Origin: a virus
Virus record (IMG/VR): IMGVR_UViG_3300050821_002215
Coordinates: 1-21,049 of that record
Strand: one strand, 5' to 3'
DNA length: 21,049 nt
Position 1 is the first letter of the stretch. Every line of letters starts with the position of its first letter. The position numbers and the translations under genes are program-made. This document shows, piece by piece, positions 909 through 19,290 of this stretch. A model generated the notes under the pieces. It was not told the origin of the DNA. It worked only from the letters and a program-made list of their open reading frames with translations, and did no database searches.

Positions 909-1153
909 CCGGTGTCTGTGAACGGAGCATAGCCGCGCATGCCCGTGGCTTGCTCCTGCGCGAGAATGTTGGGGTCGCGGATCGCGACCGTGCCGTCTGG
1001 AGAGACCCGCGTGACCGCGCCTCTTGGCTGGCGCAGGACCGTTTTGATCTCGGCAAGTTCGCGTTCCAGCAAATCGATGCGCGCATACACGAGATCAAAG
1101 GCGCGCTCCAGCCGGTCAAGACGGTCAACTAAGTGGTCATCACTGTAGGGCAT
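905..1153 (-). CDS. Small coiled-coil protein, function unknown
   Basis: An 82-residue protein starting with ATG at 1153, two bases after the stop of the nozzle gene. Residues 5-42 (DDHLVDRLDRLERAFDLVYA and on to ELAEIKTVL) form a clear heptad-type coiled coil, followed by a short beta-like C-terminus with GAVTRVSPDGTVAIRDPN. Its stop overlaps the start of the gp13-like gene as ATGA. Small coiled-coil proteins in this position occur in many podophages, sometimes as minor tail or fibre-trimer elements, but I do not recognise the family. Gene reality is supported by tight coupling on both sides and the coherent helical sequence. Confidence 0.75.
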   Translation of the reverse strand: MPYSDDHLVDRLDRLERAFDLVYARIDLLERELAEIKTVLRQPRGAVTRVSPDGTVAIRDPNILAQEQATGMRGYAPFTDTG

Positions 1154-1155
1154 GG

Positions 1156-2643
1156 TCAGCTCGTGTCGCTCGGCGCGTAGTGAAGGAAGATTTTCGAGAA
1201 CGTCGCGGCCCCCGGCGCTTGGTGGGTGATCTGAAGCTGGATGTGGGTGCCGCGCCCACTGATTGGAATTCTCCCGTCCATGATCGTCGGGCCGTCAATC
1301 GTGCAGATCTGGTCGAATGGTGTTGTCGCCTCGGTCGGGTCGAACGACGCTTGCACGTTCCAAGTCGAGCCCGGATCATTGGCGCAGATGGCGTCAAAAC
1401 CCTGGTAAAACTTGAAGGTCGCCGGCTTGTCGAACGAGAGGAATGGCGTGGTGAAGCTGACCGGGCAACTGTCGTAGTTCAACGCGCCCTGCGAGCCGAA
1501 GCGATAGATCGCTCCAGTGGTCGAGCGCAGCACGACGTAAGGGTCGGAGAACACACAATGCTGGTTGTCGATGGCGAACTCGGGGATGTAGACGCTCCAC
1601 GCCGAGATATTTGGCGACGCCCAGTTCGACAAAATGTAGATCCGGTCGCCGAAGGTCATCCAGATCCGGCCCGTCCGAGGCGAGAGGATTGCTCTCGTCC
1701 AGTAGAGGCCATAAAGCGAGCCTCGCGTCGCCAGCAAGTCTTGAATGATCGGGTCGATGGGCGAGCCCACGTCAGCCACCGCAGCGGTCGTTGTCAGATC
1801 ACGCGCCCGGAGCGACCTGATCCCGTGGGTTCCCAAGAAATAGACATCGTTGGCGACATATTGCCTGACGCTGCACGGCGCCAGCGTGCCTGCGTCGCGC
1901 AGCGTTTGGTAATATTGGTTCAACGACGGGTCCGGGTCCAGGAACCAGAGCTGGCACGACAAGTTGGAGAAAATCGCCATCTTGTCGTAGTAGACCTCCA
2001 TCGCGGTCAAGTTCTCGCTGTCGGCGTCGTTCGCGCCAATATTAACGAACCCTGAGCCGTTGTGAGCGACATTGCCGGAACTGTCGGGCGGCGGGTCCTG
2101 CCAAATCGTCGGGTCGCCAACAGCACTGAAAAACAAGTTGCGTCCGAAGACGCCGTACATCTTCTCTTTGTAGGTGCGAACGAAAGTGCCTTTGTTCGCG
2201 GCCTGCGTGACCAATACACCATTGTAATAGTGCCACCAATTAAGATTTCCGGCGAAGACGACGTAGATCTGGCCGTTGAACACATCATAAGAGTACTGAG
2301 CGACAAGTGTATCGCCCGGCGGTTGGGCGATGTGAATGACGCCGATATTGGTTGTAGTCGGCTGGTCGATCTGACCTGGAGTTCCACTCACCAAATGGGT
2401 GAACACCAGATTGTTGACCGAGCAAAGTCCTATCGATCCTGCCGGAGCCTGACACCATTCAGCGAACGCCGTGCGCTTCTCGATCTCGCCGCCTTGGGTG
2501 ATGTGGGCGTTCTGAAGCATCCGCAGAGTGCCTGCGGGCGCAGTAAGCGCGCTCTTGCGCAGGTCCATGCCGGCTTGGAAGTTGGCGATCTCGTAGTAGA
2601 GCGAGGCTCCCCCGCCAGCTCCTCCCCCGCGCTGTCCAGCCAC
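1156..2643 (-). CDS. Tail nozzle / packaged-DNA stabilisation protein
   Basis: A 495-residue protein on a GTG start (2643), three bases after the adaptor stop, with a G-rich but weak ribosome binding site. The N-terminal FQAGMDLRKSALTAPAGTLR followed by QNAHITQGGEIEKR is the hallmark opening of the P22 gp10 / T7 gp12 type of tail tube closure proteins, where the GxLRxLxN...GEixKR region starts a beta-propeller. The rest is beta-rich with repeating aromatic strands (YDVFNGQIYVVF, MYGVFGRNLFFSAVGDPTIW, DRIYILSNW). Length is close to P22 gp10 (about 470 residues). Such proteins form the hexameric nozzle below the adaptor and hold packaged DNA. The order adaptor then nozzle agrees. The broad role is well supported; P22-like versus T7-like assignment is not decided. 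Confidence 0.85.
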   Translation of the reverse strand: MAGQRGGGAGGGASLYYEIANFQAGMDLRKSALTAPAGTLRMLQNAHITQGGEIEKRTAFAEWCQAPAGSIGLCSVNNLVFTHLVSGTPGQIDQPTTTNIGVIHIAQPPGDTLVAQYSYDVFNGQIYVVFAGNLNWWHYYNGVLVTQAANKGTFVRTYKEKMYGVFGRNLFFSAVGDPTIWQDPPPDSSGNVAHNGSGFVNIGANDADSENLTAMEVYYDKMAIFSNLSCQLWFLDPDPSLNQYYQTLRDAGTLAPCSVRQYVANDVYFLGTHGIRSLRARDLTTTAAVADVGSPIDPIIQDLLATRGSLYGLYWTRAILSPRTGRIWMTFGDRIYILSNWASPNISAWSVYIPEFAIDNQHCVFSDPYVVLRSTTGAIYRFGSQGALNYDSCPVSFTTPFLSFDKPATFKFYQGFDAICANDPGSTWNVQASFDPTEATTPFDQICTIDGPTIMDGRIPISGRGTHIQLQITHQAPGAATFSKIFLHYAPSDTS

Positions 2644-2646
2644 CGG

Positions 2647-3423
2647 CTACCCCCCGATCTGCTGGTACGCCGGAATGAAGTCGAGATAGGGCGTCAGGCG
2701 TCGACCATCGTTGAGCGACCCCATGTGGCCGCCATCTTTGGAAAGCGACTTCATGTTGCGCTGCTGCGCCCCCAACCGGGCGATCAGCATGCGCCGGTAC
2801 TGGTTGGCCTTCTGGAGTTTGAGCGACGCGCTCTCGCTCTTTTGCATCGCCAAAATCTCAGCCGCTGCAAAGAGAACCACCAGGGTCGCGTCGATCACGC
2901 AGGTGTCTGTGTCCTCGACCAGCGCGTTCAACGGCGCGTTGCCCTCGATGCGCAGCGAGTAGGGATAGTTGGCGGGCGGGATCGGCCACACTTCAAACTG
3001 CGCGGCGGCGTTCGTCGAGCCGCTGGTCACATCGTACTGGGCGCAATTGCGCCAGCGCCGGGGCGGCCACGCCTGGATCAATTCACCGCCCATCGCCGCG
3101 TAGGTCTGCGGGTTAATACCGTAGTCCAGGGGCACCCAGGTGACGCCCTGCGGCCACCAGATCCTGAAGATGCTGTCGAACGGGAGTTCAGGCGGATAGT
3201 CGTAGTAACGCTGGCCGGCGACCATCGGCATGTCGTGGTAGATCGTCAGATGCGGCCACTCGATGTCGTTCCACTGCTCGCGCTGCACCCGCTGAAGCTG
3301 ATAATTGTAGAAAGGCGTCGAAGACGTGGTCTGGCTGGGGGTCAGCGACTGAAACGTCTCGGCGAGAAGCTCGTAGCGCAGCTCGCTCAAAGGCACGCCC
3401 ACCCGCATCGAGCGCAGGGCCAT
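2647..3423 (-). CDS. Head-tail adaptor / tail tubular protein A-like
   Basis: A 258-residue protein starting at ATG 3423 with a clear AGGAGG eight bases upstream. The sequence has the look of podophage adaptors (T7 gp11 / P22 gp4-like, and phage proteins annotated as tail tubular A). It has an early helix with LSELRYELLAET, an aromatic strand set PHLTIYHDMPMVAGQRYYDYP, FRIWWPQGVTWVPLDYG, then RWRNCAQYDV and FEVWPIPP, and a helical C-terminus from about residue 195 (LVVLFAAAEILAMQKSESASLKLQKANQYRRMLIARLG). Adaptors bind the bottom of the portal as a dodecamer and connect to the nozzle. It is followed directly by the nozzle gene, which supports the role. Confidence 0.8.
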   Translation of the reverse strand: MALRSMRVGVPLSELRYELLAETFQSLTPSQTTSSTPFYNYQLQRVQREQWNDIEWPHLTIYHDMPMVAGQRYYDYPPELPFDSIFRIWWPQGVTWVPLDYGINPQTYAAMGGELIQAWPPRRWRNCAQYDVTSGSTNAAAQFEVWPIPPANYPYSLRIEGNAPLNALVEDTDTCVIDATLVVLFAAAEILAMQKSESASLKLQKANQYRRMLIARLGAQQRNMKSLSKDGGHMGSLNDGRRLTPYLDFIPAYQQIGG

Positions 3424-3453
3424 ATTCGAACCCTCCTAGACTGACGCGCCTGC

Positions 3454-4005: not shown

Positions 4006-4325
4006 GGCTGCTTCTTCGTGTCTGCGGCCTTGTGATCGGCCTTGCGCGCCTCTTCTTGCGCCGCCTTGAGCCTGGCGCCGCGCTCGGCTTCGGTCTTCGC
4101 CAGTTCCTCTTCGTCGGCGGGCTGGCCGGCGACATAGTCCCTGCTGCCCGGCTTGGCGAGATGAAAGTCCTCCGGCGGCGGATAGTTCTCAGTCTTTGGC
4201 GGAAGATCCTCCGGCGGCTTGTCTGGCGTTGGCGCTGGCGTTGGCGCTGGCGGCTTGGCTGGCGTTGGCGCCGGCTGATGCGACGCTTGCTGCGGCGGGC
4301 GGCCCGGCGGTTGGCTGGTCGTCAT
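4002..4325 (-). CDS. Proline-rich, partly helical protein
   Basis: I choose ATG 4325 (107 residues) because GGAG lies eight bases ahead of it. An in-frame ATG at 4355 overlaps the Ig-like gene stop as ATGA and would add ten residues, but has no visible ribosome site, so either is possible. Residues 1-50 are low-complexity Pro/Ala/Thr (APTPAKPPAPTPAPTPDKPP), probably an extended linker. Residues 75-107 are a charged helix (EEELAKTEAERGARLKAAQE). No known family. The composition looks like a flexible spacer on a capsid-associated protein, which is only an inference. Confidence 0.65.
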   Translation of the reverse strand: MTTSQPPGRPPQQASHQPAPTPAKPPAPTPAPTPDKPPEDLPPKTENYPPPEDFHLAKPGSRDYVAGQPADEEELAKTEAERGARLKAAQEEARKADHKAADTKKQP

Positions 4326-4995: not shown

Positions 4996-5020
4996 TGTCT
5001 AGCGTAAAACAGGACGCTAG
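4996..5020 (-). promoter_or_regulatory. 20-base repeated element, copy 1, with 7-bp hairpin
   Basis: TGTCTAGCGTAAAACAGGAC (plus strand, 4996-5015) matches copy 2 at 7243-7262 in 18 of 20 bases. On the minus strand it starts at the capsid stop codon and ends about 46 bases ahead of the next gene start. CTAGCGT (4999-5005) pairs with ACGCTAG (5014-5020) around an 8-base loop. The capsid TAG is followed in frame by five codons and a second TAG inside the element. It could be a phage-specific promoter, an RNA processing site or a weak terminator; there is no T-tract after the stem. Confidence 0.45.
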
Positions 5021-6132
5021 GCGATGTCCAAAACAAGCGACGAATTCAGCATCGAAGCGACCATCTGGCCGGTCGACGTGATCGACTTGTAGAGCACGAA
5101 AATGTTATACGGGCGCGCCGGGGTGTGGTCCTTGCGCCACTCGTCTTCCATCGCCATCAGGAAGATGCACTTCGGGTCGAACCAATAGAGCCGCTTGGAG
5201 AAGCCCAGGTCGTCGAGCGTTGGGTCGTACTGCACCTTGGTCCCGCCAGGCAGGATAATGTCGCCCGAAGAGATGTCCTGCGAGTTGGAGAAGCCGGTCA
5301 TGGTGTACGTGCCGTTCGCCCGGCGCTCGATCATCAAGGCGTCGATCAGCGCCGACCCCGCCAGCGCCACCGTCGGCTTGCCGCCATAACGGATGAGCTG
5401 GAAGTACTCGTGCTGGAGCGCCTGCAACAGCGCGCCGCCGTTGGCGGGGTTCGACGTGATCGGGCCGCCGCCGGAGATCGCGTCGCCCGGGGTTGTCCCG
5501 ATCTGCGTCGCCATCGCGGCGGTGTGCGCCCGGTTGCGCCACCAGGTGAACCCGGTCGCGGCGGTCTGATCGAGGCCGCCGACAGTGCCTACGCCGGGAT
5601 TGTCCTTGATAATGCTGCGCATGCCGGCCAGCGCCTTGGCGTCCGAAGTGCCGTCGCCCCACAGCAGCGCGTTCATGGTGCGGGCGTACTGCTCGCCCAA
5701 CGAGAACAGCTTCTGTTGGAGGAGATTGACGAGGACCGTCAGCTCGCGCTTCGAGTGCTCGGCGGTCTTGTCGCCGTTGGTGTCGACGACGCTGATGCCG
5801 TCGATCTTCAGCTCGGTGTGGGTAAGCGTCAGGCCGATGTGATGTTCGCGCCAGGGGTAGTTCGCCCGCTTAATGTTGGCCGGGGTGAAGAACCCGACGG
5901 CGTCGTTGTGGGTGTAACCCTTGACGACATCGTTGCCGGAGCCGTCGCCGTACTGCCCGACGACCGCGAGCGAGATATTGCCCTTGCCGCCGGGGAAGGT
6001 CTTCTTGCGCCCCTCAAGGAGGTTCAGAAGAGGCTTGTTCTGGATCGACTGGTCGAACTCACCGCCTTTGTTAAAGTAGTAGTCGAGTGACGCGTTCGCG
6101 ATGGAGGCGATTTCGCCTGCTGTGAAGGCCAT
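5017..6132 (-). CDS. Major capsid protein
   Basis: A 371-residue protein with ATG at 6132 and GGAG eight bases upstream. The pattern fits an HK97-fold major capsid protein of the group found with podophage portals: an N-terminal helix (EIASIANASLDYYFNKGGEF), the EGRKKTFPGGKGNISLAVVG strand pair, a long spine helix around residues 125-160 (SKRELTVLVNLLQQKLFSLG), a glycine-rich loop (GDAISGGGPITSNPANGGAL), P-domain strands with ALIDALMIERRANGTYTMTG, and a C-terminal part with WRKDHTPARPYNIFVLY. It follows the scaffold gene by 18 bases, the classical order. The family was recognised by context and general pattern. Confidence 0.88.
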   Translation of the reverse strand: MAFTAGEIASIANASLDYYFNKGGEFDQSIQNKPLLNLLEGRKKTFPGGKGNISLAVVGQYGDGSGNDVVKGYTHNDAVGFFTPANIKRANYPWREHHIGLTLTHTELKIDGISVVDTNGDKTAEHSKRELTVLVNLLQQKLFSLGEQYARTMNALLWGDGTSDAKALAGMRSIIKDNPGVGTVGGLDQTAATGFTWWRNRAHTAAMATQIGTTPGDAISGGGPITSNPANGGALLQALQHEYFQLIRYGGKPTVALAGSALIDALMIERRANGTYTMTGFSNSQDISSGDIILPGGTKVQYDPTLDDLGFSKRLYWFDPKCIFLMAMEDEWRKDHTPARPYNIFVLYKSITSTGQMVASMLNSSLVLDIA

Positions 6133-6150: not shown

Positions 6151-7200
6151 CTATGCTCCGCGAGCACGCGCAAGTCCGAGTTCTGCGGCCTCCATCAGAG
6201 AGCGCGGCTCCGGGCGTGCGCCTGACGCGGCGCGGTTGATGCTGCTCGGAACTGCCCTGGTCGGCTGGCGTTGAGGGGCGAAGGATTGAAGCGTCCGGTT
6301 CGCCCGGGAGTAAGCCTCCTTGGCGATCTCGACAGCGTGCTCCGGCGACTGCGGAGCTCCTCGTTCCTGAACCACGGCCCAGAGGAAGTTCCTCACGGTT
6401 TCTTCCTTGCGTCCGTAGTCCGGGTCGGATTGGCGGATCCCGTTCTCCCACGCGCTCACCGTTTGCTCGATGGAGCGCGAGAGATGCTGCTGTTGCGCGA
6501 CGGTGACTTGAGTGCTCGCGACCTGCGTGACGCGCGTCGCGCGTTGCTCGGCGAGAGCCCTGGCGTACCTGTCGCGCGACATTTGAGCCGCCGCGTCGAA
6601 CGACACGCGACCCTGCTGAACCTCGCCTTGGAGATCCGGCGGGAGCGTGATCCCTAGCGCCTGCGTGGCGAGTTGAACGTAGGGTCCGACGCCATCCAAA
6701 AACGACTTGAAGTCGCCACGCCGCATGGCCGCCGCTAAGTCGAGCGTGAGCTGAAAATCTTCCCGTGCGATGTCGTTGGTGACGAGAAAATTTCGCAGTG
6801 TCTGCGTGACTTCGGCTTCAGCCTTGTAGGCGTTGCGCTGTCCAAGCAACTGCTCGATGCGCTCGCGGGTGCGTTTATTGTAGGCTGCGAGTTCGTCGGC
6901 AGATGGATCGTTGGCGAGGTCTGGCCCCTTGTCCGCTTCACCCGCTTTGGCTTCGGGTTCGGAACTAGGAACGCTCTCCGAGGGTGGCGAAGTCCCGGCG
7001 AGAGACGGCTCTTCATCAGTGTCGTCGGCGGGCTTGACCGCCTTGAGCACCGCTTCGAGCAGTGTCTCCTTAGTGTCGCTCTTCTCAGCCTCTGACGGGG
7101 AGGCGGTTACGTCGGGGGTTTGAGAACGCTCCGCCGGCGCTGCGCTAGTGGCGGCGTCTCGAAGCGTTTCAATGGGTTCGGCAGTCGACGGGTCTGCCAT
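6151..7200 (-). CDS. Capsid scaffolding protein
   Basis: A 349-residue protein just upstream of the capsid gene. Residues 1-95 are acidic, Ser/Pro/Glu-rich and probably disordered (TDEEPSLAG, SVPSSEPEAKAGEADKGPD). A coiled-coil region follows (ADELAAYNKRTRERIEQLLG), then a mostly helical body with the FLVTNDIAREDFQLTLDLAAAM and ARALAEQRATRVTQVASTQV stretches. The C-terminus is basic (RPEPRSLMEAAELGLARARG). An acidic start, helical middle and basic capsid-binding tail are the standard layout of podophage scaffolds, which guide capsid assembly inside the procapsid and then leave. The ATG at 7200 has only a distant GGAG (about 12 bases). It lies 43 bases downstream of repeat copy 2. Confidence 0.85.
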   Translation of the reverse strand: MADPSTAEPIETLRDAATSAAPAERSQTPDVTASPSEAEKSDTKETLLEAVLKAVKPADDTDEEPSLAGTSPPSESVPSSEPEAKAGEADKGPDLANDPSADELAAYNKRTRERIEQLLGQRNAYKAEAEVTQTLRNFLVTNDIAREDFQLTLDLAAAMRRGDFKSFLDGVGPYVQLATQALGITLPPDLQGEVQQGRVSFDAAAQMSRDRYARALAEQRATRVTQVASTQVTVAQQQHLSRSIEQTVSAWENGIRQSDPDYGRKEETVRNFLWAVVQERGAPQSPEHAVEIAKEAYSRANRTLQSFAPQRQPTRAVPSSINRAASGARPEPRSLMEAAELGLARARGA

Positions 7201-7240
7201 TTACGTCGGTGTCTCCACGAGCGTGTCTGCCCGTGCCTGT

Positions 7241-7382: not shown

Positions 7383-9665
7383 TCAAGCAACAGCTCTTCC
7401 GCCGGACGCCACAATATGTGGCGGCCCAGGCATGGGGTTCGGAGGAGGCGGCCCTCCCGTCTGATCAGGCGGGCGCTGCGCGCCAGGCGGAGCCCCTTGC
7501 GGCGCATTCGAACCTCCCGCCGGGCCTTGAGCCGCGCCCTGGCCGGGGAAGTCCATCGGGCCGCCAGGGCCTTGCGGGCCTTGCCCCAGCTTGGCGGCCA
7601 TGCCGTTCATGGCGATGATCGACGGCAGCATCGACTGGAACGCTGTGGTGATGTCGAGCTTGTCGTCGAGCCGCTTGATCAGCTCCTTCGCCAGCCACTC
7701 CGGCTTGATCCCCGGCAATTGCATCAGCATCGGGAAGATCCGCTCGGCGTTGGCGATTTCCTGCGCCTGGTTGGGACGCCCGGTCGAGCCGGCTTCGATC
7801 TGGAGCCAAAGCTCGTCGGCGATCTGCTGGCGTGACATGTCGGGCCACACAGCGCCTTCGCCCACAATCCGCTTGACCGTGTCTACAGACACCTCCTGCA
7901 AGAGGATCTGCGCGCCGGCGCGGGCAAACGAAGTGAGCAGGTCGTCGATATCATCGATGTTCGCGCCCATCGCGGTGGCGCGCGAGGCTTCGGCGATGTT
8001 CGATTGGGTGGCGCTGGGCGAGCCGCCAGTCTGGCCGATGTTGGCGTCCTGGATGCCGCTGACCCGCATCATGTCGACGAAGGTCTGCTCGACTTCGTAC
8101 AGGTTGGGGTCGATTGGCGGACCTCTGAACGCCTGCAAGAGATCGTCGACCTTCTGGCCGGGCTGGAGCCCGTTCAGTTCGATGATTGCGTTGTCAGGGT
8201 GGTTCGACAGCTTCTCAAGATCTTCCGCGTCGATCATGCCGGCGGCGGTCACGGTTTTTGGTCGCGCGGCGCGGCGATGCTCGCGAATGCCCTGACGTCC
8301 GCGATTGTAGTCCATCTGCATGTCGCGGATCAGCTTCACGTCCGACGGCGGGAAGATCATCGTCTCGTGGTCGACCTCGTTGAGCGTCAGGACGAACCAC
8401 GGCCAGAAGCGGTCGGTGTAGACCTCGGGCGACGCCGGCTCGCGCAGGAAGTCATTGTAGCCGTCGCACATCGTATAGACGAGGCCATCCTTGCGGTTCC
8501 AGATCTCCCACACCACGCACGAGCGCCCGTCATTGCCTTCGCGGTTGTCGGTCCTGGCGGTCTTGTCCTGCAATACGACGAAGCCGCTGCGCGACGTGAC
8601 CGTCACCCCGTCGTCAAAACCCTTGTAGGCGTTGAAGCTCTTGCCGACGTCGACATTGTAGATCTCTTTCACGTCGTTGGGCGACAGGACGAACTCTTGG
8701 GCGACCCAGTCAGCGCCTAGGAACTCCCGCAGGAACATCGTCTTGGGATCGGGGATGATCGCCGTCGACACCGGGTAGTCGAAGGTCAAGCCTTCGCGCA
8801 CGACAACCTGTGTCTGCGCCTTGAGGTCGTTGAGGAGAAGCCGGAGCTGCTCAGCCTCGGGGCCGTTCTCGTCGGTCTGGTCGTCGTGGATGTCGGCGCT
8901 GATGCGCTCCAACGTGGAAAGCCGGTTCGAAATATCGGCGATGCGCTGCTCGATCTCCGGCTTCTTCTGCATCACACGCTCGAAGCCGAGCTTGAGATAG
9001 CCGACGCCGGTGGTCGACGCGCGCCGCACCGTCATCTTCATCATCTGCTTGAAGTCTTGCGGCGCGGCGTCGATGTTGGCGCGGAACAATAGCTCAAGCG
9101 TCTTGCCAATTTTGCCGAGCTGCTCCTCTTCGGCCTTGACCCGAGCGGCGTCTTGCAGAATGGGCATCGCCGCGCTTTGAGCCTGCTGCGCCATCGCCGG
9201 GTCCATCACGCCCATCGCCACTTGCTGCGAGACCTGCGCGGCCGACTGCTGAAGCGCGACCAGCGTGGTCTGCTCGTTGTCCCACACGGTGTTAAGGATG
9301 CGCTGACGCCGGAACGCCTCGAACTTGGGGTTCTTGGCGTAGAAGAACGCCACCCGCTGGGCGATGATGCGCAGGGTCAGATTGGCGGTATATCTGTCGT
9401 CCTTCTCCTCTTTCGACCACTGGTAACCCGCCGCAAAATCCTGATCGGCCTTCATCCGGTTAAAGACGGGCTCCCAGTATTTCTTGGCGCGCTTGACCTT
9501 GTCGGCCCACTGCGACACCAGCTCCTTGCGGGGTTCGGATGGATCGGGCGGATCGCGTTCCAGCAGGTCTTCGTTCTGACGCTCAAGCCCCATCAACTGC
9601 TCAAGCGGCACGCCCGGTTGGTCAGCGAGCGCCTGACCGAATGGATCGCTGTCAAGAACCGCCAT
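7383..9665 (-). CDS. Portal protein
   Basis: A 760-residue protein starting at ATG 9665, one base after the terminase stop. The N-terminal WADKVKRAKKYWEPVFNRMK and YTANLTLRIIAQRVAFFYAK, the central VVWEIWNRKDGLVYTMCDG strands, WPWFVLTLNEVDHETMIFPP, and the long helix DVKLIRDMQMDYNRGRQGIR followed by RRAARPKTV are the typical podophage (P22/T7-type) portal layout, as is the SGIQDANIGQTGGSPSATQS clip-to-crown region. The portal is the dodecameric DNA channel and the docking ring for terminase. The last about 60 residues are Gly/Pro/Gln-rich (GPQGPGGPMDFPGQGAAQGP), resembling the Gly/Pro-rich protein encoded at 11649-12095. Long coiled coils near residues 130-190 and 215-260 add to the usual length. 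Confidence 0.92.
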   Translation of the reverse strand: MAVLDSDPFGQALADQPGVPLEQLMGLERQNEDLLERDPPDPSEPRKELVSQWADKVKRAKKYWEPVFNRMKADQDFAAGYQWSKEEKDDRYTANLTLRIIAQRVAFFYAKNPKFEAFRRQRILNTVWDNEQTTLVALQQSAAQVSQQVAMGVMDPAMAQQAQSAAMPILQDAARVKAEEEQLGKIGKTLELLFRANIDAAPQDFKQMMKMTVRRASTTGVGYLKLGFERVMQKKPEIEQRIADISNRLSTLERISADIHDDQTDENGPEAEQLRLLLNDLKAQTQVVVREGLTFDYPVSTAIIPDPKTMFLREFLGADWVAQEFVLSPNDVKEIYNVDVGKSFNAYKGFDDGVTVTSRSGFVVLQDKTARTDNREGNDGRSCVVWEIWNRKDGLVYTMCDGYNDFLREPASPEVYTDRFWPWFVLTLNEVDHETMIFPPSDVKLIRDMQMDYNRGRQGIREHRRAARPKTVTAAGMIDAEDLEKLSNHPDNAIIELNGLQPGQKVDDLLQAFRGPPIDPNLYEVEQTFVDMMRVSGIQDANIGQTGGSPSATQSNIAEASRATAMGANIDDIDDLLTSFARAGAQILLQEVSVDTVKRIVGEGAVWPDMSRQQIADELWLQIEAGSTGRPNQAQEIANAERIFPMLMQLPGIKPEWLAKELIKRLDDKLDITTAFQSMLPSIIAMNGMAAKLGQGPQGPGGPMDFPGQGAAQGPAGGSNAPQGAPPGAQRPPDQTGGPPPPNPMPGPPHIVASGGRAVA

Positions 9666-9666
9666 G

Positions 9667-11235
9667 TCACCAGCCCCCCGTCGTCAGGTTCTCGCGCTCG
9701 CGATTGCGCTCTTTCAGCGCGCTCTCGATCACCCAGGCGTAGGTTCCCTGCTTGGGCTCCTTGCTCTCTTTCGGCGGCACGCGATGACCGCGCACCTTGT
9801 ACAGCCCCTGCCCAAACAAGGAGAGCGTGTCGACGAAGTCGTCGTGCGCGCCTTGCGGGAATTTCAACATCTGGTCGTGCGCCTCGGCCCACCAGCGGGT
9901 GAACACAGGGAAGAGAATTTTCATCATCGACATTCGCGCTTGCACCGACTGCGCGCGTGTCTGCTTGTCGCCGACAGGGGTTAACTCGTCTATCGAGCAG
10001 AACACCCGCTTTTCCAGCATGCGCTTGCGCAGGAAGGGGCCGATGCTCTTGGAAATGTGGCCCTTTTCCGCCCACCAGAACAACGGCTTGTAGCGCTCCA
10101 TCAAGATCGTCATCGTCTCGACGACAAGTTGCGTGTCCGCTTGCTGCCAGAAAATATCGGGCTGGACCCACATCTGGTCGTGATCATCGACGCCAACAAC
10201 CATCAAACAAGTCTTGTCACGGCCTTGTTCAAGGCTGACCGCGTGATCGCTCGCCCCGTAGAAGCGCAGACGTTCCTTGGGCGGCATGTCTGAGACACGC
10301 GCGTAGGGGCGCATATGAACTGCCTTGAAAAAGGAGCCTTCTTCCGGCGTTGGGCGGCCCTGGTAGAGCGCCTGGAAGCCCCGGATGTCGGTTTCGCGGA
10401 TATTGTCGAGATATTCGCGGTCGAACCGCTCCGGCCATAGAGCTTCGCCCTTTTTGCGGCCCAGAACATCTTTTTCGCGAGCAATCGCGGGCATGTCGAT
10501 CACCCGCCACTTCCTGGCTTCGCTTTCGGAGTAACACGGGTTCTGCGGATCGGTCAGACGGCCAATTAAGTCGTCTTCGTGCCAGCGTGTCTGGATGATC
10601 ACGATGGCTCCGGCCTTGGTCATCAGCCGTGTCTGCAAAACCTGGGTGTACCAGGACCAAAGTTGCTCTCTTATCGTCGGGCTGTCGGCTTCTTTACGGT
10701 CTTTGGTCGGATCGTCGAGCAAAATCACGTCTGCGCCGCGTCCGGTCGCTCCAGAACCGCGCCCAAGGAAGAAAAGCACGCCTCCGTCCTCGGTTTCGAG
10801 CCGGTCCATCGACGCGGACCCCGTTTTGAGCCGCACTTTGGGGAAAATCTGCCTGAAAAGCGGATTTTCGATCAGGTCGCGCACCGCCCGGCCGTGATCC
10901 CAGGCGAATTTCTCGGAATAAGTGGCGCAAATCAGCGATTTTTCCGGGTTTCGGCCAATGAACCAGGCGGCGAACATGTGCGAGGCGAGCTTAGTCTTGC
11001 CGTGTCTGGGCGGAAGGGTGATCTGAAGGCGCTTGTAGGCCCCTTTTTCCACCTGTTCGAGGGCTGCGCCAAGCACGCGGTGGTGCTTGGCGGGCCGGTA
11101 CAGAGACACGAGACAATCGTCCTGCATATCAGGGATTGGCGTCATGAATTTAGCGAACGCAATCACGTCGTCACGCGCCAGAAGGATCGCCTTCTTGCGT
11201 TCGAGCAGCTTTCTGAGTTCGATCCGGTCGCTCAT
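9667..11235 (-). CDS. terL: Terminase large subunit
   Basis: A 522-residue protein. I use ATG 11235, which overlaps the upstream stop as ATGA; the longer frame to 11388 would lie wholly inside the previous gene. The Walker A loop is LPPRHGKT (residues about 74-81), Walker B is VILLDD (about 170-175), and a coupling motif follows in IIQTRWHEDD. The C-terminal RNase H-like nuclease shows acidic residues in GASDHAV, VVGVDDHDQ and GAHDDFVDTLS. TerL cuts concatemeric DNA and pumps it through the portal using ATP. It directly precedes the portal gene, as usual. The TerS candidate is not adjacent but about 7.7 kb away. Confidence 0.95.
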   Translation of the reverse strand: MSDRIELRKLLERKKAILLARDDVIAFAKFMTPIPDMQDDCLVSLYRPAKHHRVLGAALEQVEKGAYKRLQITLPPRHGKTKLASHMFAAWFIGRNPEKSLICATYSEKFAWDHGRAVRDLIENPLFRQIFPKVRLKTGSASMDRLETEDGGVLFFLGRGSGATGRGADVILLDDPTKDRKEADSPTIREQLWSWYTQVLQTRLMTKAGAIVIIQTRWHEDDLIGRLTDPQNPCYSESEARKWRVIDMPAIAREKDVLGRKKGEALWPERFDREYLDNIRETDIRGFQALYQGRPTPEEGSFFKAVHMRPYARVSDMPPKERLRFYGASDHAVSLEQGRDKTCLMVVGVDDHDQMWVQPDIFWQQADTQLVVETMTILMERYKPLFWWAEKGHISKSIGPFLRKRMLEKRVFCSIDELTPVGDKQTRAQSVQARMSMMKILFPVFTRWWAEAHDQMLKFPQGAHDDFVDTLSLFGQGLYKVRGHRVPPKESKEPKQGTYAWVIESALKERNRERENLTTGGW

Positions 11236-11639
11236 GCAGGGTTCTTTTGCGTTCCCTGCATGGTCGCGCTTTCCAGCGCAGACACGCGTTGCTGCAAGTC
11301 CCAGATCTGGCCTTTCAGATCCCACTCGTTGTCGCCTTCTGCCAAGAGGTGCGGACAGTAGACGTAGACCTCGTCGCCGAGCGGCCATTCGAGCCCGGTA
11401 TGGTTGGTCACTTCAACCGTCTCGACCCCTTCAGTCTGGTCGAAGGCTACGTCAATCTCGCCGTCGCCTGCTTTGAACACTTTGTTGGTCGAGGCGACGG
11501 TCACGTCGGCGTGTCTGGTGTCGGTGTAACGCGTGTCAAAGCCCGGCGTGGGGATCTTGATCCCCTCGCCGTCCGGCAATGGAGCTTCGAGCTTGATGCG
11601 CCAACCGTAAGACTGGGCGCTCTTGTCGCCTGCCGTCAT
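11232..11639 (-). CDS. Small beta-rich protein with C-terminal coiled coil
   Basis: A 135-residue protein from ATG 11639 with an excellent AGGAGG site that overlaps the TAG of the previous gene. The middle is beta-rich (TNKVFKAGDGEIDVAFDQTE, VETVEVTNHTGLEWPLGDEVYVY), recalling small beta-barrel or decoration folds. The end is a short coiled coil (WDLKGQIWDLQQRVSALESA). It sits directly upstream of TerL with an ATGA overlap. I do not recognise a family. A coiled coil plus beta domain could form a trimer, for instance a head fibre or decoration, but this is only a guess. Confidence 0.72.
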   Translation of the reverse strand: MTAGDKSAQSYGWRIKLEAPLPDGEGIKIPTPGFDTRYTDTRHADVTVASTNKVFKAGDGEIDVAFDQTEGVETVEVTNHTGLEWPLGDEVYVYCPHLLAEGDNEWDLKGQIWDLQQRVSALESATMQGTQKNPA

Positions 11640-11648: not shown

Positions 11649-12095
11649 CTAAGACACCCGCACGGGCGCTTGCTTGATCTTGATGCCGCGCCCCGGCGGA
11701 GCCTTCGGACGCGAACGCGGCGGCCCAGGCGGGCGGCCCATCGCCTGCCCAGGCGAACCCACCATAGGAGCCCGGGGAGCCGGAGGCGGCCCTGCGCCCA
11801 TGCCGGGAGGCGGGCCCATCGGAGGCGGACCCATGCCGGGAGGCCCGCCAGCTCCCATGCCTGGAGGAGGCCCCCCGGCGATGGGAGGCATCGCCGGAGG
11901 ACCGCCGCCGGGCATGCCGCCAGGAGGCATCCCCGGACCCGGGTGCATCGTCAAACTCGCAGCCTGGCCGTGTCTGGCCGAAAGAGCCGCCAGCAAGCCG
12001 CCTAGCCCTCCGCCGGGGGGAGGTCCAGCTCCCATTGGCGATCCGCCGGGAGGAAGTCCGCCGGGCGGGGGTCCGCCTCTCATTGGAAACGCCAT
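11649..12095 (-). CDS. Gly/Pro/Met-rich low-complexity protein
   Basis: A 148-residue protein with GGAGG seven bases before ATG 12095. Almost the entire chain is GGPPPG/PGMPPGG-type low complexity; only residues about 30-50 (GLGGLLAALSARHGQAASLT) look like a helix, and the end is basic (RSRPKAPPGRGIKIKQAPVRV). Because of the repetitive GC-rich coding, the opposite strand also stays open, but the ribosome site and operon position support this strand. A similar Gly/Pro/Gln tail occurs at the portal C-terminus. Function unknown; probably a flexible virion component. Confidence 0.6.
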   Translation of the reverse strand: MAFPMRGGPPPGGLPPGGSPMGAGPPPGGGLGGLLAALSARHGQAASLTMHPGPGMPPGGMPGGGPPAMPPIAGGPPPGMGAGGPPGMGPPPMGPPPGMGAGPPPAPRAPMVGSPGQAMGRPPGPPRSRPKAPPGRGIKIKQAPVRVS

Positions 12096-13900: not shown

Positions 13901-16900
13901 CAATTGCGCCCGATGCAGTGGTACTTGATCACGTCCGTACCCGTGCCGGTGAAGGTCAGGACGGTCGTCGTCTCGCTGACCGACGAAGCGTTTCCGGGCG
14001 TCGTAGCGTCGGCGGTGAAGCAAACCGGAGCCGTAGCGTAGACACCAGTGAGCGTGTAGGTCGCCGTTCCAGCCGCAAGGGTGATCCGTCCGCCGACGTC
14101 TTTGTTGGCTGACGAGCCGCTGCGGATGGTGGTTGCGGTATAGTCGGGATTGGCCGGATCGTTGGAGATCGGCGCGGCTCCGTAGGGGTAGAGGAGCTTG
14201 ATCGGATCATTGGCGGCGAGACTGGCGTTGAACGTCGCCGCCGTGCAGGTGATCTGGTTGGCGGCGCAAGAACTGAACACGCACAGATTGACGTTCGGAA
14301 AGAGGCTTGGGCTGGTGTCGGAAACGAGCGTCCCGGCCGGCGGGGTCACGGCGGGGCAAGCAGCGACCGACAACGGGGTGGAGGTCGGCTGTCCCTTGGC
14401 GACGGCGGCGGTGAGCGTCGTCGAAAAGGCTGGCGCATAATACCAAGCGGCTTGGCCGCCCGGCGACTGCGCCGTGCTGATCTCGGCGTTGCCCTGCAAA
14501 TGCCAGTTCGCAGTTGGCTTTGTCGGGCTCATGCCGAAGTAGCGCCAATTATAAGGGCTGGTGTTCCCATCGCCTCCCAAAACAACGCCATTCACCAACG
14601 CCACGCCAAACCCATTGGCTGCATAACCGGCATAGCCCTGGCTGGCCCAGATGTACTTCATCAATGAAGTCGTCGCCCCGCCAATCAGCCAATCCCAACT
14701 GAGGGTGGCTATGTTCCAGCCAAGCCCGACAGTTGTAGCGGTCGAGCAATTGCTGATGCTGACGCCGATTGCATACCAAATGGTGGGAGCGCCGCCGAGC
14801 GCGGCGCATCTTACGCCATCAGCGCCGCCCAAAACCTGGAACCCCTGGATGCCGTAAAAAGCGTTGCCAATTAAACTTGGCCCGTTGTAGTAACTCGCGC
14901 CAAAAGATCCAACAATGAGCGGCCCGCCAGGGGTGGGCGGATAAATCGTCCAATCGTTAGCGGGCAACTGATTGGCGCAGGCATTGACTGAGCCGGTCAG
15001 ATAAGCGCCGACTATCACCGTTTTGTTTTGATTAGCGCAATTGATAATGAAGCCCCATTTGGCGGTGTTGCCCTCGCCGCTCTCGGTGTTCGGATTGGTA
15101 TAAATCTCACCAAGGGTAGCCCCCTCGAAAATATCAGCCAGCATATTGCCGGAGAATTGCTCGTCGGTTGAACTGGCGGTCGAAGTATTGTTCCCCGCCA
15201 CCCATCTCCCGACAAGGTCGATCTGATGCCAATTGTCGCGGTCACGCGACAGGTCGCAATTGACGCCCGACGACCCGCTGGAGCACGCCATCTGCTCGCC
15301 GAGCGGCGAGTAGCTCAGAACATTATGCTCGGCCGACGCGGCGGTCCGGCGCTTCAGGTCCGCCGGCATGACCCATAAAGGAGCCTCAGCCCCTGGCGCA
15401 TGGGTTACGGTGGCGTTCTGCGCCGTCCCGGTGTCGCTGGGAACCGTCATCGTCACCGTCTCAGGGAACCCGGTCCCGGTCGCGGTGAACACCGTCGTGC
15501 CCAACGGAAAGGCGTCGCTCACGACAATGTCTGCCGGCTGCAGGCGGCGCGGCCCCGAGATCACCGTCACCGAGTTGCCGCCGCTGACCGTCTGAACCTT
15601 GAACGCCTGAGCTGCCGGGAGCTGAAAGAACCGCGTCTCGACATTTTGCACCGTGCATGGCGCAGCGCAGTTCGCCGCATTGTTGGCGCCGGAAAAAGTC
15701 GCGCCGCCGAACGCGCCGGCCGGCGTCCCTGCTGGAGTATAAACCGAAGCCAGGGTGTTCGCCCCAGGTCCGCTGTAGTTCGAGGTGAAGGTGATCACCC
15801 CGGCGGCATACGACGCCGTGACGTTAAGATTAGGCAACATGCCCTGCGGGGTCGATACCGGTGGAATATACGTGACAAACTGCCCAGCGGTATTCTTGAT
15901 CGCCGCAATCAGATTGGCCGCCGAAGTGGGAAAATCGACCCCAGTCGCCACGAGATAAGGCGTGCTGACCCCAGACATCGTCGCTGATCTGAACACATAC
16001 GTTACGCCGCCAACCGTGATCGCATCATTGGCGAGAAAGTTGTTCGACCCGGTTTCGGTGAACGTCGCGGTGGACTTCGGCGGGACGCCCCAGCCAAGAT
16101 TGATTGAACCGCCAAGAAACTGGCTGACCGGATTTGATAACGTTAGGTTCTGCTGCCCGGCGGGGTTGCCGTCGCCGCCCAGCGCCCCGACCGCGGTAAT
16201 CGTCGTGCCGAGCGGCGCGGCCGGGATCGCCTCGATAGGAAAAGATCCGTTGTGGTAGGCGCTTAAGAGAATGCCGTCGCCAACCTGCCAGGCCGACAAA
16301 GGAAGAAACCCGGCGGGATCGCCGGCAAAATAGACGCCAGTCAGGACATTCGGCGTAATTGGATTGGCGGTCGCCGCGCCGTAATCCATGCCGCGAATGT
16401 TGCAGCCGCTGAGCATGCCGCCGCCCGATCCGCCATCCGAGGTGAGCGTGGAGGCTTCCTGGATGACGCGGTCGACGCCAGGGGCAAAGATTAAATATGT
16501 CGTCGACCCCGTCGGCGTCGTCCCACTGCAATGGTAGTTGGCGGCTCTACTCAAGATTAACGGCTGGGTGAAATAAAACTCGTTGTAGGCTTGCCCGGGT
16601 CTTGGCCCCGGAATGGTCACGTCGTAATTGGCCCCGAGCGGGCCGATAGCGTTCATCAAAGCCGGCACCAAAGGCGCATTGTCGACGATATTGCCGGCAG
16701 TGAGCGGGGTCATGCCGACGCTGGGATCGGTGACCAGAAGGTCGGCTTCGCCCATGCCGCCGCCGCCAATCGGGTGGAAGGTATGGGTGGTCGGGTCGAT
16801 TGTGCCGATTGGCGCCCAGGTCTTGGTGTTGTCGAGCACCTGGAGCACTTCCGGCAATGTGGTCGGGGTGATGCCCATTTGCGCCGGCGCTACCTGAGCG

Positions 16901-16962
16901 GCGGCGACGGCGGGCGCACACAAAGCAGCAAGAAGGGCGGCGAGGCGCTTGAGCATCGTCAC
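13900..16962 (-). CDS. Tailspike-like protein with Sec signal peptide
   Basis: A 1020-residue protein. GTG 16962 overlaps the fibre stop as GTGA and an ATG lies at 16956; both give the same N-terminus. Residues 3-23 are a textbook signal peptide: KR, then LAALLAALCAPAVA, then an AAAQ cleavage region. There is no lipobox. The body is beta-rich, with Gly/Asn/Thr-rich turns (YFAGDPAGFLPLSAWQVGDG, FTSNYSGPGANTLASVY, YYNGPSLIGNAFYGIQGFQV) suggesting a right-handed beta-helix of the tailspike/pectate-lyase type in the middle-to-C-terminal part, and a final beta domain (GGRITLAAGTATYTLTGVY) that could be a trimerising cap. Roughly 17 cysteines are present, several in pairs (NCAAPC). It follows the fibre gene, as expected for a receptor-binding or depolymerase subunit; no catalytic residues could be assigned. 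Confidence 0.78.
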   Translation of the reverse strand: MTMLKRLAALLAALCAPAVAAAQVAPAQMGITPTTLPEVLQVLDNTKTWAPIGTIDPTTHTFHPIGGGGMGEADLLVTDPSVGMTPLTAGNIVDNAPLVPALMNAIGPLGANYDVTIPGPRPGQAYNEFYFTQPLILSRAANYHCSGTTPTGSTTYLIFAPGVDRVIQEASTLTSDGGSGGGMLSGCNIRGMDYGAATANPITPNVLTGVYFAGDPAGFLPLSAWQVGDGILLSAYHNGSFPIEAIPAAPLGTTITAVGALGGDGNPAGQQNLTLSNPVSQFLGGSINLGWGVPPKSTATFTETGSNNFLANDAITVGGVTYVFRSATMSGVSTPYLVATGVDFPTSAANLIAAIKNTAGQFVTYIPPVSTPQGMLPNLNVTASYAAGVITFTSNYSGPGANTLASVYTPAGTPAGAFGGATFSGANNAANCAAPCTVQNVETRFFQLPAAQAFKVQTVSGGNSVTVISGPRRLQPADIVVSDAFPLGTTVFTATGTGFPETVTMTVPSDTGTAQNATVTHAPGAEAPLWVMPADLKRRTAASAEHNVLSYSPLGEQMACSSGSSGVNCDLSRDRDNWHQIDLVGRWVAGNNTSTASSTDEQFSGNMLADIFEGATLGEIYTNPNTESGEGNTAKWGFIINCANQNKTVIVGAYLTGSVNACANQLPANDWTIYPPTPGGPLIVGSFGASYYNGPSLIGNAFYGIQGFQVLGGADGVRCAALGGAPTIWYAIGVSISNCSTATTVGLGWNIATLSWDWLIGGATTSLMKYIWASQGYAGYAANGFGVALVNGVVLGGDGNTSPYNWRYFGMSPTKPTANWHLQGNAEISTAQSPGGQAAWYYAPAFSTTLTAAVAKGQPTSTPLSVAACPAVTPPAGTLVSDTSPSLFPNVNLCVFSSCAANQITCTAATFNASLAANDPIKLLYPYGAAPISNDPANPDYTATTIRSGSSANKDVGGRITLAAGTATYTLTGVYATAPVCFTADATTPGNASSVSETTTVLTFTGTGTDVIKYHCIGRN

Positions 16963-17867
16963 CCGCCTGTCGCGTAAAAGTATTGGGCGACCAGCGACTG
17001 GCCAGGGATCAAACTCCAGACAGTCGAAGTCCAGTTGATCGTCTGGCCGGCGACGGTGAACGCCGGAGCCGGATCAAGCGACGTAAAAGCCTGGCCATTG
17101 AAGAAAAGCGTCACTGCGCCATAAGGCGCGTGCTGAAGATTGGAGACGGCGTTGACCGCAGTGATCGACAACGCCTCAGTCATCGGCGCGATGCCTGCCG
17201 GCAACGGTACGAGGCCAGACACGATCTGCACCGCACGGTTGGCCCACCAGCGGCTCGACCAGTGATCGCCGGTAATCGCGTTGATCGCCAGGATGTTAGG
17301 GGGAATGGTGTCAGGCATATGCTCGGCCCACTCGATTGACACCTGTGAGTAGTCCTGCGCCGTCGCGCTCGCGCCGAGATCGTCAACGCCAAACGGACCG
17401 CCGACGTTGGGCCCGAGCACGCCAGTCGGCAGCGCCGGGGCGGCGCTACGCGTCTCCACCTCCGCATTGAACGCGGCGAGGCGCATCCGAACCTCCTCGG
17501 ACGCGCGCGACATCGCGTCGGCGCTGGCGGCGATGTCGCGGCGCGACGCCTCGATCCGGTCCTGAATGGCCCGCGCCTCGGCGAGCGCGGCTTGCGCCTG
17601 CGAGGCGGTTCGCGTGACGTTGGCCAGCAACGCGCTCATCGCGGCGACGGCCCGTTCCGCCAGGATCTCCGGCAGTCTCGGGTCGAGCTGCTCGGGGCCG
17701 ATGGAGCCGTTCTTGACGACGCCGTCGTCGCGCACGACGGTGCGCAAAAAGTCAATGACGTTGGAGACGGACTTGCGGTGCTCGTCGAATTGCCGGCCGA
17801 TGTCGTGCGCTGCAACGACACCGCTGTTGAACGGCACGATTTTTTCGGGAGGGTTCGGAAACGACAT
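16959..17867 (-). CDS. Tail fibre protein
   Basis: A 302-residue protein starting at ATG 17867; the frame extends to 18200, but that part overlaps the divergent promoter region and is not gene-like. The N-terminus (residues 1-60: IVPFNSGVVAAHDIGRQFDE, then IDFLRTVVRDDGVVKNGSIG, then EQLDPRLPE) is a common head-proximal segment of podophage tail fibres. Residues about 65-140 are an Ala/Glu/Arg-rich coiled coil (TRTASQAQAALAEARAIQDR) expected to trimerise. The C-terminal 130 residues are beta-like and contain NAITGDHWSSRWWANRAVQI and FTVAGQTINWTSTVWSL. It is first in the leftward late operon and is followed by the tailspike. It probably links the tailspike or host contact to the tail. Confidence 0.78.
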   Translation of the reverse strand: MSFPNPPEKIVPFNSGVVAAHDIGRQFDEHRKSVSNVIDFLRTVVRDDGVVKNGSIGPEQLDPRLPEILAERAVAAMSALLANVTRTASQAQAALAEARAIQDRIEASRRDIAASADAMSRASEEVRMRLAAFNAEVETRSAAPALPTGVLGPNVGGPFGVDDLGASATAQDYSQVSIEWAEHMPDTIPPNILAINAITGDHWSSRWWANRAVQIVSGLVPLPAGIAPMTEALSITAVNAVSNLQHAPYGAVTLFFNGQAFTSLDPAPAFTVAGQTINWTSTVWSLIPGQSLVAQYFYATGG

Positions 17868-17933
17868 CGGCCGCTCTTGAAAAGGAGGGGCGACGGACCA
17901 TGCCGAGCGGTCCATTAACGGCCGAGGGACAAG

Positions 17934-17962
17934 GGTATAGGCGACTTTGTCACGTCTGTCGA
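17934..17962 (-). promoter_or_regulatory. Sigma70-like promoter for the fibre/lysis/head operon
   Basis: On the minus strand TCGACA (plus 17957-17962) and TATACC (17934-17939) are separated by exactly 17 bases. This matches TTGACA/TATAAT at 5 of 6 and 4 of 6 positions. It lies about 67 bases upstream of the fibre start codon in the gap between divergent genes. The call is from sequence alone. Confidence 0.45.
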
Positions 17963-18056
17963 GAGACACGCCAGACGCAGAGATCGCGTTGACTTGGCGC
18001 TTGAAAGCGCACACGATCATGGCAAAAGAAAAAGTCATCGGGAGGAGGCCGCTCAA

Positions 18057-18269
18057 ATGTTCGGCTTCGACTTCGCCGACGCTGTGCAAGCCGCCGCGCT
18101 CCTGGCGCTTGCCGCAATCAGCGTGTTCGCGTTGCGGCGCATCGATCACCGCTTCAACCAACAGCACGACGACATGCAAGACGTGATCATCAGTCAGCAC
18201 GACATCATCAAAAAGCTCAACGGCCAGCAGGCGGAAATCGACAGGCTAAAAAGCAAGGACCGCGCATGA
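18057..18269 (+). CDS. Small membrane/coiled-coil protein
   Basis: A 70-residue protein from ATG 18057, with GGAGGAGG upstream (11 bases from the last G to ATG, slightly long). It has one N-terminal hydrophobic segment (ADAVQAAALLALAAISVFAL, about residues 7-26), followed by a basic stop and a charged coiled-coil tail (RRIDHRFNQQHDDMQDVIIS, then HDIIKKLNGQQAEIDRLKSK). This is the architecture of short spanin-like or membrane-anchored phage proteins, but it is too short for a typical inner-membrane spanin. It reads away from the tail fibre, so it belongs to a different transcription unit than the lysis genes. Function unknown. Confidence 0.6.
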   Translation: MFGFDFADAVQAAALLALAAISVFALRRIDHRFNQQHDDMQDVIISQHDIIKKLNGQQAEIDRLKSKDRA

Positions 18270-18380
18270 GAACCTCCTGGGGACATCCGCAGCCCACGTC
18301 GCGTTTGTCGGTCAGAGCCCGATTGACAGACACGGATTTTCCTCGCCCTCCTGCGGCTCTCGAACACGAGGAGGAAAGCG

Positions 18381-18623
18381 ATGGACCTGGAGCTTCGACG
18401 GTTTCGGCGCGAGTTCCGCAAGCGCGGCGGCTGGACCTTAACCGTGTGGGATAGGCCTCCAAGCCCCGACAAGACCGAGATCAGTTGGACAACGGACGAA
18501 AGCGGCAGGCGCTGCCTGCATTTCGTCATCATACGAAACTCGATCAGAGAGGCTTTCGAAGCGTTGAATTCGCGAGAGCTCGTGGAAGCGATCCGATTGT
18601 TGCCTCCAGGCAGGCTCAATTGA
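18381..18623 (+). CDS. Hypothetical protein, 80 residues
   Basis: An 80-residue protein with AGGAGG well placed ahead of ATG 18381. The sequence alternates a basic helix (ELRRFRREFRKRGGWTLTVW), a strand (TEISWTTDESGRRCLHFVII) and a C-terminal helix (SIREAFEALNSRELVEAIRL). It could be a compact alpha/beta fold. No family recognised. It is 111 bases after the membrane protein gene, a gap that contains the CAGACACG motif at 18327. Probably an early gene; this is inferred only from its strand and position. Confidence 0.68.
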   Translation: MDLELRRFRREFRKRGGWTLTVWDRPPSPDKTEISWTTDESGRRCLHFVIIRNSIREAFEALNSRELVEAIRLLPPGRLN

Positions 18624-18930
18624 ACCTCCCAGCAGCACAGACAGCCCGCGCGGCGCTCGATCCGGCGGGGACAAGGACCACGCTGAGGCCCCCGGAAAGG
18701 CTGGGGAGACACGGCGCTCCTGTCTGCTGGGCGTCGAAGTGTGCTTAAAGTGTGATGCGAAGTTGGAGACACAGAAATTTAGTACACGTGTCGGGCACGG
18801 GCTCGCGACCTCGCGCGCATACCCCCGGGGGCGAAGACCTGAGCCTCGCCGCCGCCCGCGCGTCGGGGCGCTCCCTCCTACAGGGAGCGCAGACACGAAT
18901 GAAATCAATGGGTTAGGACGACGGCCGCGG
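18624..18930. other. 307-base intergenic stretch between convergent genes
   Basis: No convincing gene. It contains a perfect 9-bp hairpin (18868-18890), a CCCCCGGGGG palindrome near 18833, and copies of the GAGACAC/CAGACAC motif (18711, 18767, 18890). A rightward frame from GTG 18739 begins with a CLKC pair, but it has no ribosome site and turns into Arg/Pro-rich sequence, so I treat it as non-coding. The region separates the rightward 80-residue gene from the leftward TerS-like gene and may hold their terminators or a packaging-related site. Confidence 0.6.
18868..18890. terminator. Perfect 9-bp stem hairpin, possible terminator
   Basis: GCGCTCCCT (18868-18876) pairs perfectly with AGGGAGCGC (18882-18890) around a CCTAC loop. 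It lies 40 bases beyond the stop of the leftward TerS-like gene and in a convergent gap, where terminators are expected. Neither side has the T-tract of a Rho-independent terminator, so it could instead be a protein-binding or packaging element. Confidence 0.4.
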
Positions 18931-19290
18931 TCACGCGTCGTCACGCGCCAGCGCTTCGAGCCGGTCGTCTAGCTCCGCCAGCGTGAGTTCCGGCGCGGTC
19001 TTTCGAGCCGTGTCTGCGACGGTGTTTTTGAGCGCTCCGGCAAGCTCTAAAAGTGTGCGCGCCGCCTGTGCACGCGCCGCTGCCGGGCTCAAAGCGTCTT
19101 CGCAGATAACCTGCAAAGTTCGTTTAGCCAGTTCGACCGTGTCTACCGTGTCTGCCGTGTTAGTCCGTGTCTGCGGCTGATCCGGCCCGCTTGCGTCGAC
19201 GGGCTTCGCCGTTGACCGCCGCGAACTTGACGAGCGTCTTGACGCTTTTGGCGTAGGGCCGGGATTGCGCCGCAATCTTTCCTCCCCCAT
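18931..19290 (-). CDS. Terminase small subunit-like protein
   Basis: A 119-residue protein if ATG 19290 is the start; no better start was found and there is no strong ribosome site (GAGG 16 bases away). The first 45 residues are Ser/Arg/Pro-rich and overlap the HGG gene for 131 bases in another frame. The ordered part is helical: ELAKRTLQVICEDALSPAAA, then RAQAARTLLELAGALKN, then ELTLAELDDRLEALARDD. This recalls the helical body and C-terminus of some phage small terminases, which recognise phage DNA and present it to TerL. The TerS identity is tentative. The DNA holds the 9-base-spaced CGTGTCT repeats, which encode (A/V)DT units. Confidence 0.5.
   Translation of the reverse strand: MGEERLRRNPGPTPKASRRSSSSRRSTAKPVDASGPDQPQTRTNTADTVDTVELAKRTLQVICEDALSPAAARAQAARTLLELAGALKNTVADTARKTAPELTLAELDDRLEALARDDA
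19139..19173. repeat. CGTGTCT repeat cluster inside the TerS-like gene
   Basis: GTGTCTA (19139), GTGTCTG (19148), a degenerate GTGTTAG (19157), and GTGTCTG (19167) follow one another at about 9-10-base spacing. In the minus-strand gene, three codons per unit encode (A/V)DT triplets. The motif is the same as the octamer scattered over the window. Confidence 0.6.

Follow-up and report, generated by a model that had tools for sequence, protein, structure and literature searches.

The CobS and CobT homologues encoded by viruses are considered to boost cobalamin via the host CobN (PMC8651126), an accepted role that rests on homology. A second system close to the present subject is that of the primase-polymerases of pRN1 and of phage NrS-1, which read 5'-GTG-3' in the template, the NrS-1 enzyme recognizing also an 8-nucleotide site (PMC8718748, PMC8076596). 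Here, we describe the octamer CGTGTCTG in the IMG/VR virus record IMGVR_UViG_3300050821_002215, analysed over positions 1 to 21,049 (the window), a 21-kb virus record that is a fragment of a phage genome. Our analyses show that this word is a selected, DNA-level signal on both strands of a whole phage group. We propose, with a probability of about 0.45, that it is read by, or serves a complex with, the phage CobS-like MoxR AAA+ ATPase and CobT-like VWA protein, in replication or recombination.

Over-representation of the word in the window

Exact counting found 15 copies of CGTGTCTG in the window, 11 on the plus and 4 on the minus strand, against a mean of 0.79 in dinucleotide shuffles (n = 100), none of which reached 15. 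Under a Markov-3 model the word is the top 8-mer of the window (p = 9e-12). The initial annotation, made by eye, had listed at least 14 copies, and all 14 positions are correct. The core GTGTCTG occurs 20 times; the three further heptamers reported earlier (912, 2903 and 7886) are confirmed, the list being short by two (6798 and 8810). The copies are given below together with the genes used in this work, CGTGTCTG being located by exact match, with homologous-site comparison in addition for the copies in the gene of the terminase large subunit (terL), and the core by heptamer count.

4017-4024, plus: CGTGTCTG
7222-7229, plus: CGTGTCTG
9956-9963, plus: CGTGTCTG in terL, kept in relatives of the GTGTCTG dialect, synonymously lost in others
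10586-10593, plus: CGTGTCTG in terL, homologous site
10628-10635, plus: CGTGTCTG in terL, homologous site
11001-11008, plus: CGTGTCTG in terL, GAGGCAC in other dialects
11279-11286, minus: CGTGTCTG
11510-11517, plus: CGTGTCTG
11969-11976, plus: CGTGTCTG
17216-17223, minus: CGTGTCTG, inside a supposed gap and overlooked at first
18327-18334, minus: CGTGTCTG
18890-18897, minus: CGTGTCTG, cluster upstream of cobS
19009-19016, plus: CGTGTCTG, cluster upstream of cobS
19147-19154, plus: CGTGTCTG, cluster upstream of cobS
19166-19173, plus: CGTGTCTG, cluster upstream of cobS
912-918, plus: GTGTCTG core
2903-2909, plus: GTGTCTG core
6798-6804, plus: GTGTCTG core, newly listed
7886-7892, minus: GTGTCTG core
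8810-8816, plus: GTGTCTG core, newly listed
5017-6132, minus: major capsid protein, used for a tree (phrog_9953, 3.2e-33)
9667-11388, minus: terL, used for homologous-site and tree comparison (phrog_38, 4.9e-100)
19836-21049, plus: 5' part of the gene of the CobS-like MoxR AAA+ ATPase, continuing past the window end (phrog_249, 1.9e-29; CobS profile, 4e-167)

The head genes of the window are podovirus-like.

An excess of this kind could be an artefact of codon use or of repeated protein motifs, as many words are enriched in high-GC genomes and 11 of the 15 in-gene copies are co-oriented. This explanation, to which we leave next to no weight, is refuted by a null that preserves protein, codon use and codon-junction dinucleotides: CAGACAC is observed 15 times in the window genes versus 2.5 expected and remains the top 7-mer, so that the codon-preserving check proposed in the initial annotation came out in favour of the word. 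Furthermore, the median top z was only 4.7 in 112 other phage and prophage loci, and homologous codons switch synonymously between relatives. As claimed earlier, the copies occupy all codon phases. One orientation does prevail, but the observed ratio of 4:11 is that of the codon shuffles (0.8:2.0), and the bias is therefore a coding effect. The absence of copies between about 12.0 and 18.3 kb does not hold, a 15th copy lying inside at 17216, and the gap is not significant: the largest plus strand gap, of 7040 bases, was smaller in 93% of random placements. With this copy inside the segment and a gap compatible with chance, the suggestion that the tail segment was acquired from elsewhere finds no support. 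The spacing of the sites is close to random and no more even than chance.

Dialects among related phages and absence from host genomes

A DNA search among phages for close records of the window returned none, and locus scans with single proteins gave almost nothing beyond the query itself. Gene calls were made with a simple open reading frame picker, and many records are fragments. The relatives recognized by terminase carry either the same word at high density (1-2 per kb in close relatives) or zero copies, and those without GTGTCTG have as their own top word a variant differing by 1-2 bases. The dialects found are GTGTCTG, GTGTCTY, GTGCCTS, GTGTCTR, GTGYCAG and GTGACAG; on the other strand, the variant top words read RAGACAC and SAGGCAC, with CTGACAC, GGGACAC and CTGTCAC in more distant phages. 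Under the codon-preserving null, the dialect word ranks top in every clade genome, with CAGACAC counted 68 times versus 7.9 expected in G002 and 57 versus 7.2 in G006, GAGACAC 39 versus 4.7 in G005 and CAGGCAC 58 versus 9.3 in G009, and with z mostly between 7 and 22, lower in short fragments. Secondary words are also enriched in two of these genomes, GAACCCC in G006 (59 versus 16.6; L172-L174) and CTGCGCC in G002 (61 versus 21.8; L169-L171).

In the terL codon alignment, CAGACAC of one dialect is replaced at homologous positions by CAAACGC, CAGACGC, GAGGCAC or CAGGCAC elsewhere, and these switches concern either strand and several phases and are mostly protein-neutral. Base preference outside the 7-mer, assessed at 836 sites in 21 records, is limited to two positions per side (chi-square upstream of GTG, 67 and 42; downstream, 33 and 19; at most about 5 at other positions). 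We take CGTGTCTG to be the most frequent version of an asymmetric address under selection, approximately 5'-C(C/G)GTGTCTG(B)G-3', which a podovirus-like clade uses on both strands and which is part of a wider family of lineage-specific dialects sharing the core GTCY. A rule by which all dialects begin with GTG was rejected, being broken by G334, G351 and Sinorhizobium phage phiM5; the constant part over all dialects is GTCY, not GTG. In G334, an open reading frame of 950 aa encoding a DNA polymerase (L326:10180-13032) carries an endonuclease-like, intein-like insert at about residues 595-649.

The word could also be a host-encoded signal copied by the phage, as Chi and DNA uptake words are likewise short, asymmetric and dense and have dialects (PMC5959072, PMC1939737). 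We consider this very improbable. When VCAGACACG was compared with its reversed control in 289 genomes of Alphaproteobacteria, no enrichment was observed, the window phage's own host not being identified. In the Rhizobiales genome G024 (4.2 Mb), which harbors the related prophage L089, TGTCTAC, the prophage's word, occurs 71 times and its reversed control 147 times; 20 of these 71 copies lie within a 43-kb stretch of the prophage contig, and outside the prophage region the word is depleted, the control being twice as common. In the sampled genomes, the address is a property of the phage and not of the host. The earlier proposal of a selected phage-wide DNA signal is borne out by its presence in whole relatives, by the synonymous switching of dialects and by its absence from the sampled genomes of the host class.

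Genes that go with the word

The replication genes of the clade encode a SNF2 helicase, an exonuclease, a single-stranded DNA-binding protein, a family A polymerase and a primase-polymerase with SF3 helicase. When complete genomes were contrasted, a CobS-like AAA+ ATPase and a CobT-like VWA protein were singled out. Among 30 near-complete genomes, CobS was found in 15/15 carriers of the word and in 0/15 non-carriers (p = 1.3e-8) and CobT in 14/15 and 0/15, the next family being present in 13 versus 3. Carrier labels were assigned from word scores, the CobS/CobT status of the records being already known at labelling, and three weaker cases (G020, G021 and Mae-Yong1326-1) were labelled carriers. 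The terL tree shows a minimum of three changes in Cob status, which motif status follows. G346 carries the word and was scored Cob-negative; it is a fragment, with a terminase identical to that of the Cob-positive G348. The coincidence of word carriers with CobS/CobT carriers suggests that CobS and CobT act on DNA.

The association was examined in held-out loci, 60 of the new ones returned by scans with CobT and CobS alignments, versus 103 loci without CobS/CobT. The best GTCY-core z had a median of 4.93 in the former and 2.41 in the controls (p = 1.9e-14; p = 1.4e-10 once the core-defining clades were left out), and the top word had a GTCY core in 30/60 versus 11/103 loci, with 6% expected by chance. 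New dialects appeared in these loci, namely TGGTCCC, GTCCCGG, TTGTCCC and CTTGTCC. In nine loci, all with divergent CobS, GTTTAAA was the top word and GTTTAAAC palindromes were numerous, with 24 in the 20.8 kb of L515 and a high density also in L507, L514, L487 and others; AAATTTG, used as a control word, hardly occurs in this CobS subgroup. On the CobS tree, dialects cluster. Choosing the reader protein by within-clade trees was abandoned, as the dialect is mirrored alike by the trees of capsid, polymerase and primase, which indicates vertical inheritance and is uninformative on the reader. Among phages without CobS, Vibrio phage 1.185.O (L356) has its own enriched word, ACCGGTG (54 versus 14 expected).

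In the gene profile of the 30 near-complete genomes, no family of repressors or methyltransferases varies with the word, the window itself being a fragment. This bears on two explanations that we regard as improbable to a similar degree. In the first, the copies would serve a phage repressor or nucleoid-like protein as dispersed operators, like the stoperators of Cluster A mycobacteriophages. The sites are indeed asymmetric and dispersed, they have clade-specific variants and are enriched upstream of cobS, and the window clade could be temperate. However, most copies are intragenic and on both strands, orientation tracks codon content, the profile yields no other family tracking the word, and the single orientation of stoperators relative to transcription is not matched here. 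In the second, a phage methyltransferase, modification complex or nuclease would read the word, whose density would protect or label the phage DNA. Asymmetric words of 7-8 bp with one-base dialects do resemble modification specificities and the word is phage-restricted, but an over-represented modification site offers no obvious benefit.

The position of the copies is also informative. The 1 kb upstream of cobS, which starts in the window at 19836 and has its first 1.2 kb there, contains four copies, and over five genomes this region holds 27 copies versus 7.8 expected (p = 6.5e-8), an enrichment that may be partly due to noncoding DNA varying more freely. The exact cluster is followed at 19480-19590 by degenerate copies, GCATGTCTGGCATGTCTGGC and TTGTCTGGTATGTCTGGC among them. 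In the same region, two overlapping minus-strand frames of 222 and 174 aa (18931-19684), one of which has a CRAHGG motif, are possibly one gene with a frameshift. Tandem arrays of the word, in a region lying outside the window, adjoin cobT in G002 (14 copies) and G006 (8 copies); they were sought in G004 and G335 and are absent from both. A second tandem array, of GGCGAGCGCCCCGGGC-like units of about 16 bases, occupies 47960-48197 and 1-235 of G002 (L171/L169 ends), thus reaching both contig ends, and adjoins the array of the word. An AT-rich stretch and a GGGGCCACTCGGCCCTATAAGGC-like element, present also in G006 and G004, likely mark an origin. The cobT-cobS pair is surrounded by replication and recombination genes in cyanophage S-PM2 and in Vibrio phage ICP2.

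Candidate readers and comparison with known systems

The initial annotation had considered a binding site for a phage protein, which is still the best-fitting reading of our data. In the scheme that we favor, many sites of the same dialect would let a CobS/CobT machine engage its own genome anywhere, and the clusters beside cobS and cobT would be strong loading or control sites. It is quite conceivable, if tentative, that the viral CobS and CobT of these phages are a sequence-addressed DNA machine and not B12 genes. This machine would know the genome of its phage by a dense word particular to the lineage, and the two would have diversified together into dialects. The model of CobS is a MoxR AAA+ protein, nearest to NorQ and CbbQ, with an extra N-terminal helical region (residues 15-95). 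CobT, the VWA protein, has an invariant HExxH motif in its N-terminal portion (aligned residues 98-102; L169:543-2564:-); this motif is zinc-peptidase-like, and 'Peptidase' is the annotation of the cyanophage CobT.

Several observations weigh against this proposal. No DNA-binding domain was recognized when sought in CobS and CobT, and the known activity of MoxR/VWA pairs is protein remodelling. The distant CobST phages ICP2, RHph_X66 and the T4-like S-PM2 have no such word, so that CobST is not sufficient. The strongest word of all, CTGWCAG, belongs to phiM5 (L354), in which CobS is a weak match and CobT is unmatched; over this whole genome, CTGACA is counted 166 times versus 35 expected and CTGTCA 170 versus 37, and the near-palindromic YTGWCAR is the densest word seen. 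The GTCY core was defined with the first genomes already in view, and the association of word and Cob genes is clustered in the phylogeny, with about three independent transitions. Finally, the core difference was weak when ten GC-matched viral_contigs loci served as controls (p = 0.07); one of these ten is CobS-positive in the whole record, and three other high scorers are fragments of 9-13 kb. Given these limits, direct reading by CobST, and with it a role in DNA metabolism, is inferred; what the data show is a word under selection, its dialects and their switching at homologous sites, its absence from the sampled host-class genomes and its association with cobS and cobT.

The chief rival as reader is the primase-polymerase of the phage, an enzyme with Prim-Pol domain, PriCT_2 helix bundle and SF3 helicase. 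The word would be its template recognition site, the dispersed copies serving for priming and the arrays as origins. Since the pRN1 and NrS-1 enzymes read GTG, this enzyme was the first candidate. It is encoded by the complete members of the clade, the gene lying outside the window, and it matches the NrS-1 polymerase in sequence and predicted fold. GTG begins most clade dialects on one strand, and, on the 5' side of GTG, the flank preference spans precisely the two bases at which pRN1 makes the first dinucleotide. However, the constant part of all dialects is GTCY, and lagging-strand priming would be expected to give even spacing, whereas the sites are near random. The primase-polymerase was rejected as sole predictor of the word, the family being present also in word-free relatives (G324-G326, G329) and in four cultured phages without the word. 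Taken together, these data make the primase-polymerase an unlikely reader.

A DNA address that spans the whole genome and varies in dialect would constitute a new information layer in phage genomes, written in synonymous codons, and the link with CobS/CobT offers a testable function for a pair of genes common among viruses. Carriers are available in culture (Sinorhizobium phiM5, Roseobacter CRP-810 and Microcystis Mae-Yong1326-1), and the question is therefore open to bench testing.

Among known systems, the stoperators of Cluster A mycobacteriophages (PMC9283540, PMC6550527) are likewise dispersed asymmetric phage sites with clade variants. In contrast, the word described here is mostly intragenic, on both strands, denser, and linked with an AAA+/VWA pair rather than with a repressor, and its orientation to transcription does not go beyond the coding effect. 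Chi sites and DNA uptake sequences are also short over-represented words with dialects between relatives, but they are signals of host genomes, whereas the phage word is not enriched in the sampled genomes of the host class. The recognition sites of pRN1 and phage NrS-1 (PMC8076596, PMC8718748, PMC7102993) go with the same enzyme architecture, and most clade dialects carry GTG at one end; NrS-1 has only two copies of its 8-nucleotide site, and in our set enzyme presence does not predict the word (G324-G326, G329 and other carriers). HIP1 of cyanobacteria (PMC4390886) is likewise a very dense over-represented octamer, palindromic and found in bacterial chromosomes, whereas the phage word is asymmetric, though one CobS subgroup uses the palindrome GTTTAAAC. 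With the viral CobS/CobT of PMC8651126, the likeness is that of the same two gene families, both of the homologues that define viral cobalamin genes, an AAA+ CobS and a VWA CobT, being found here; the difference is that in the present phages they go together with a DNA word found throughout the genome, an association not predicted by a role in cobalamin.

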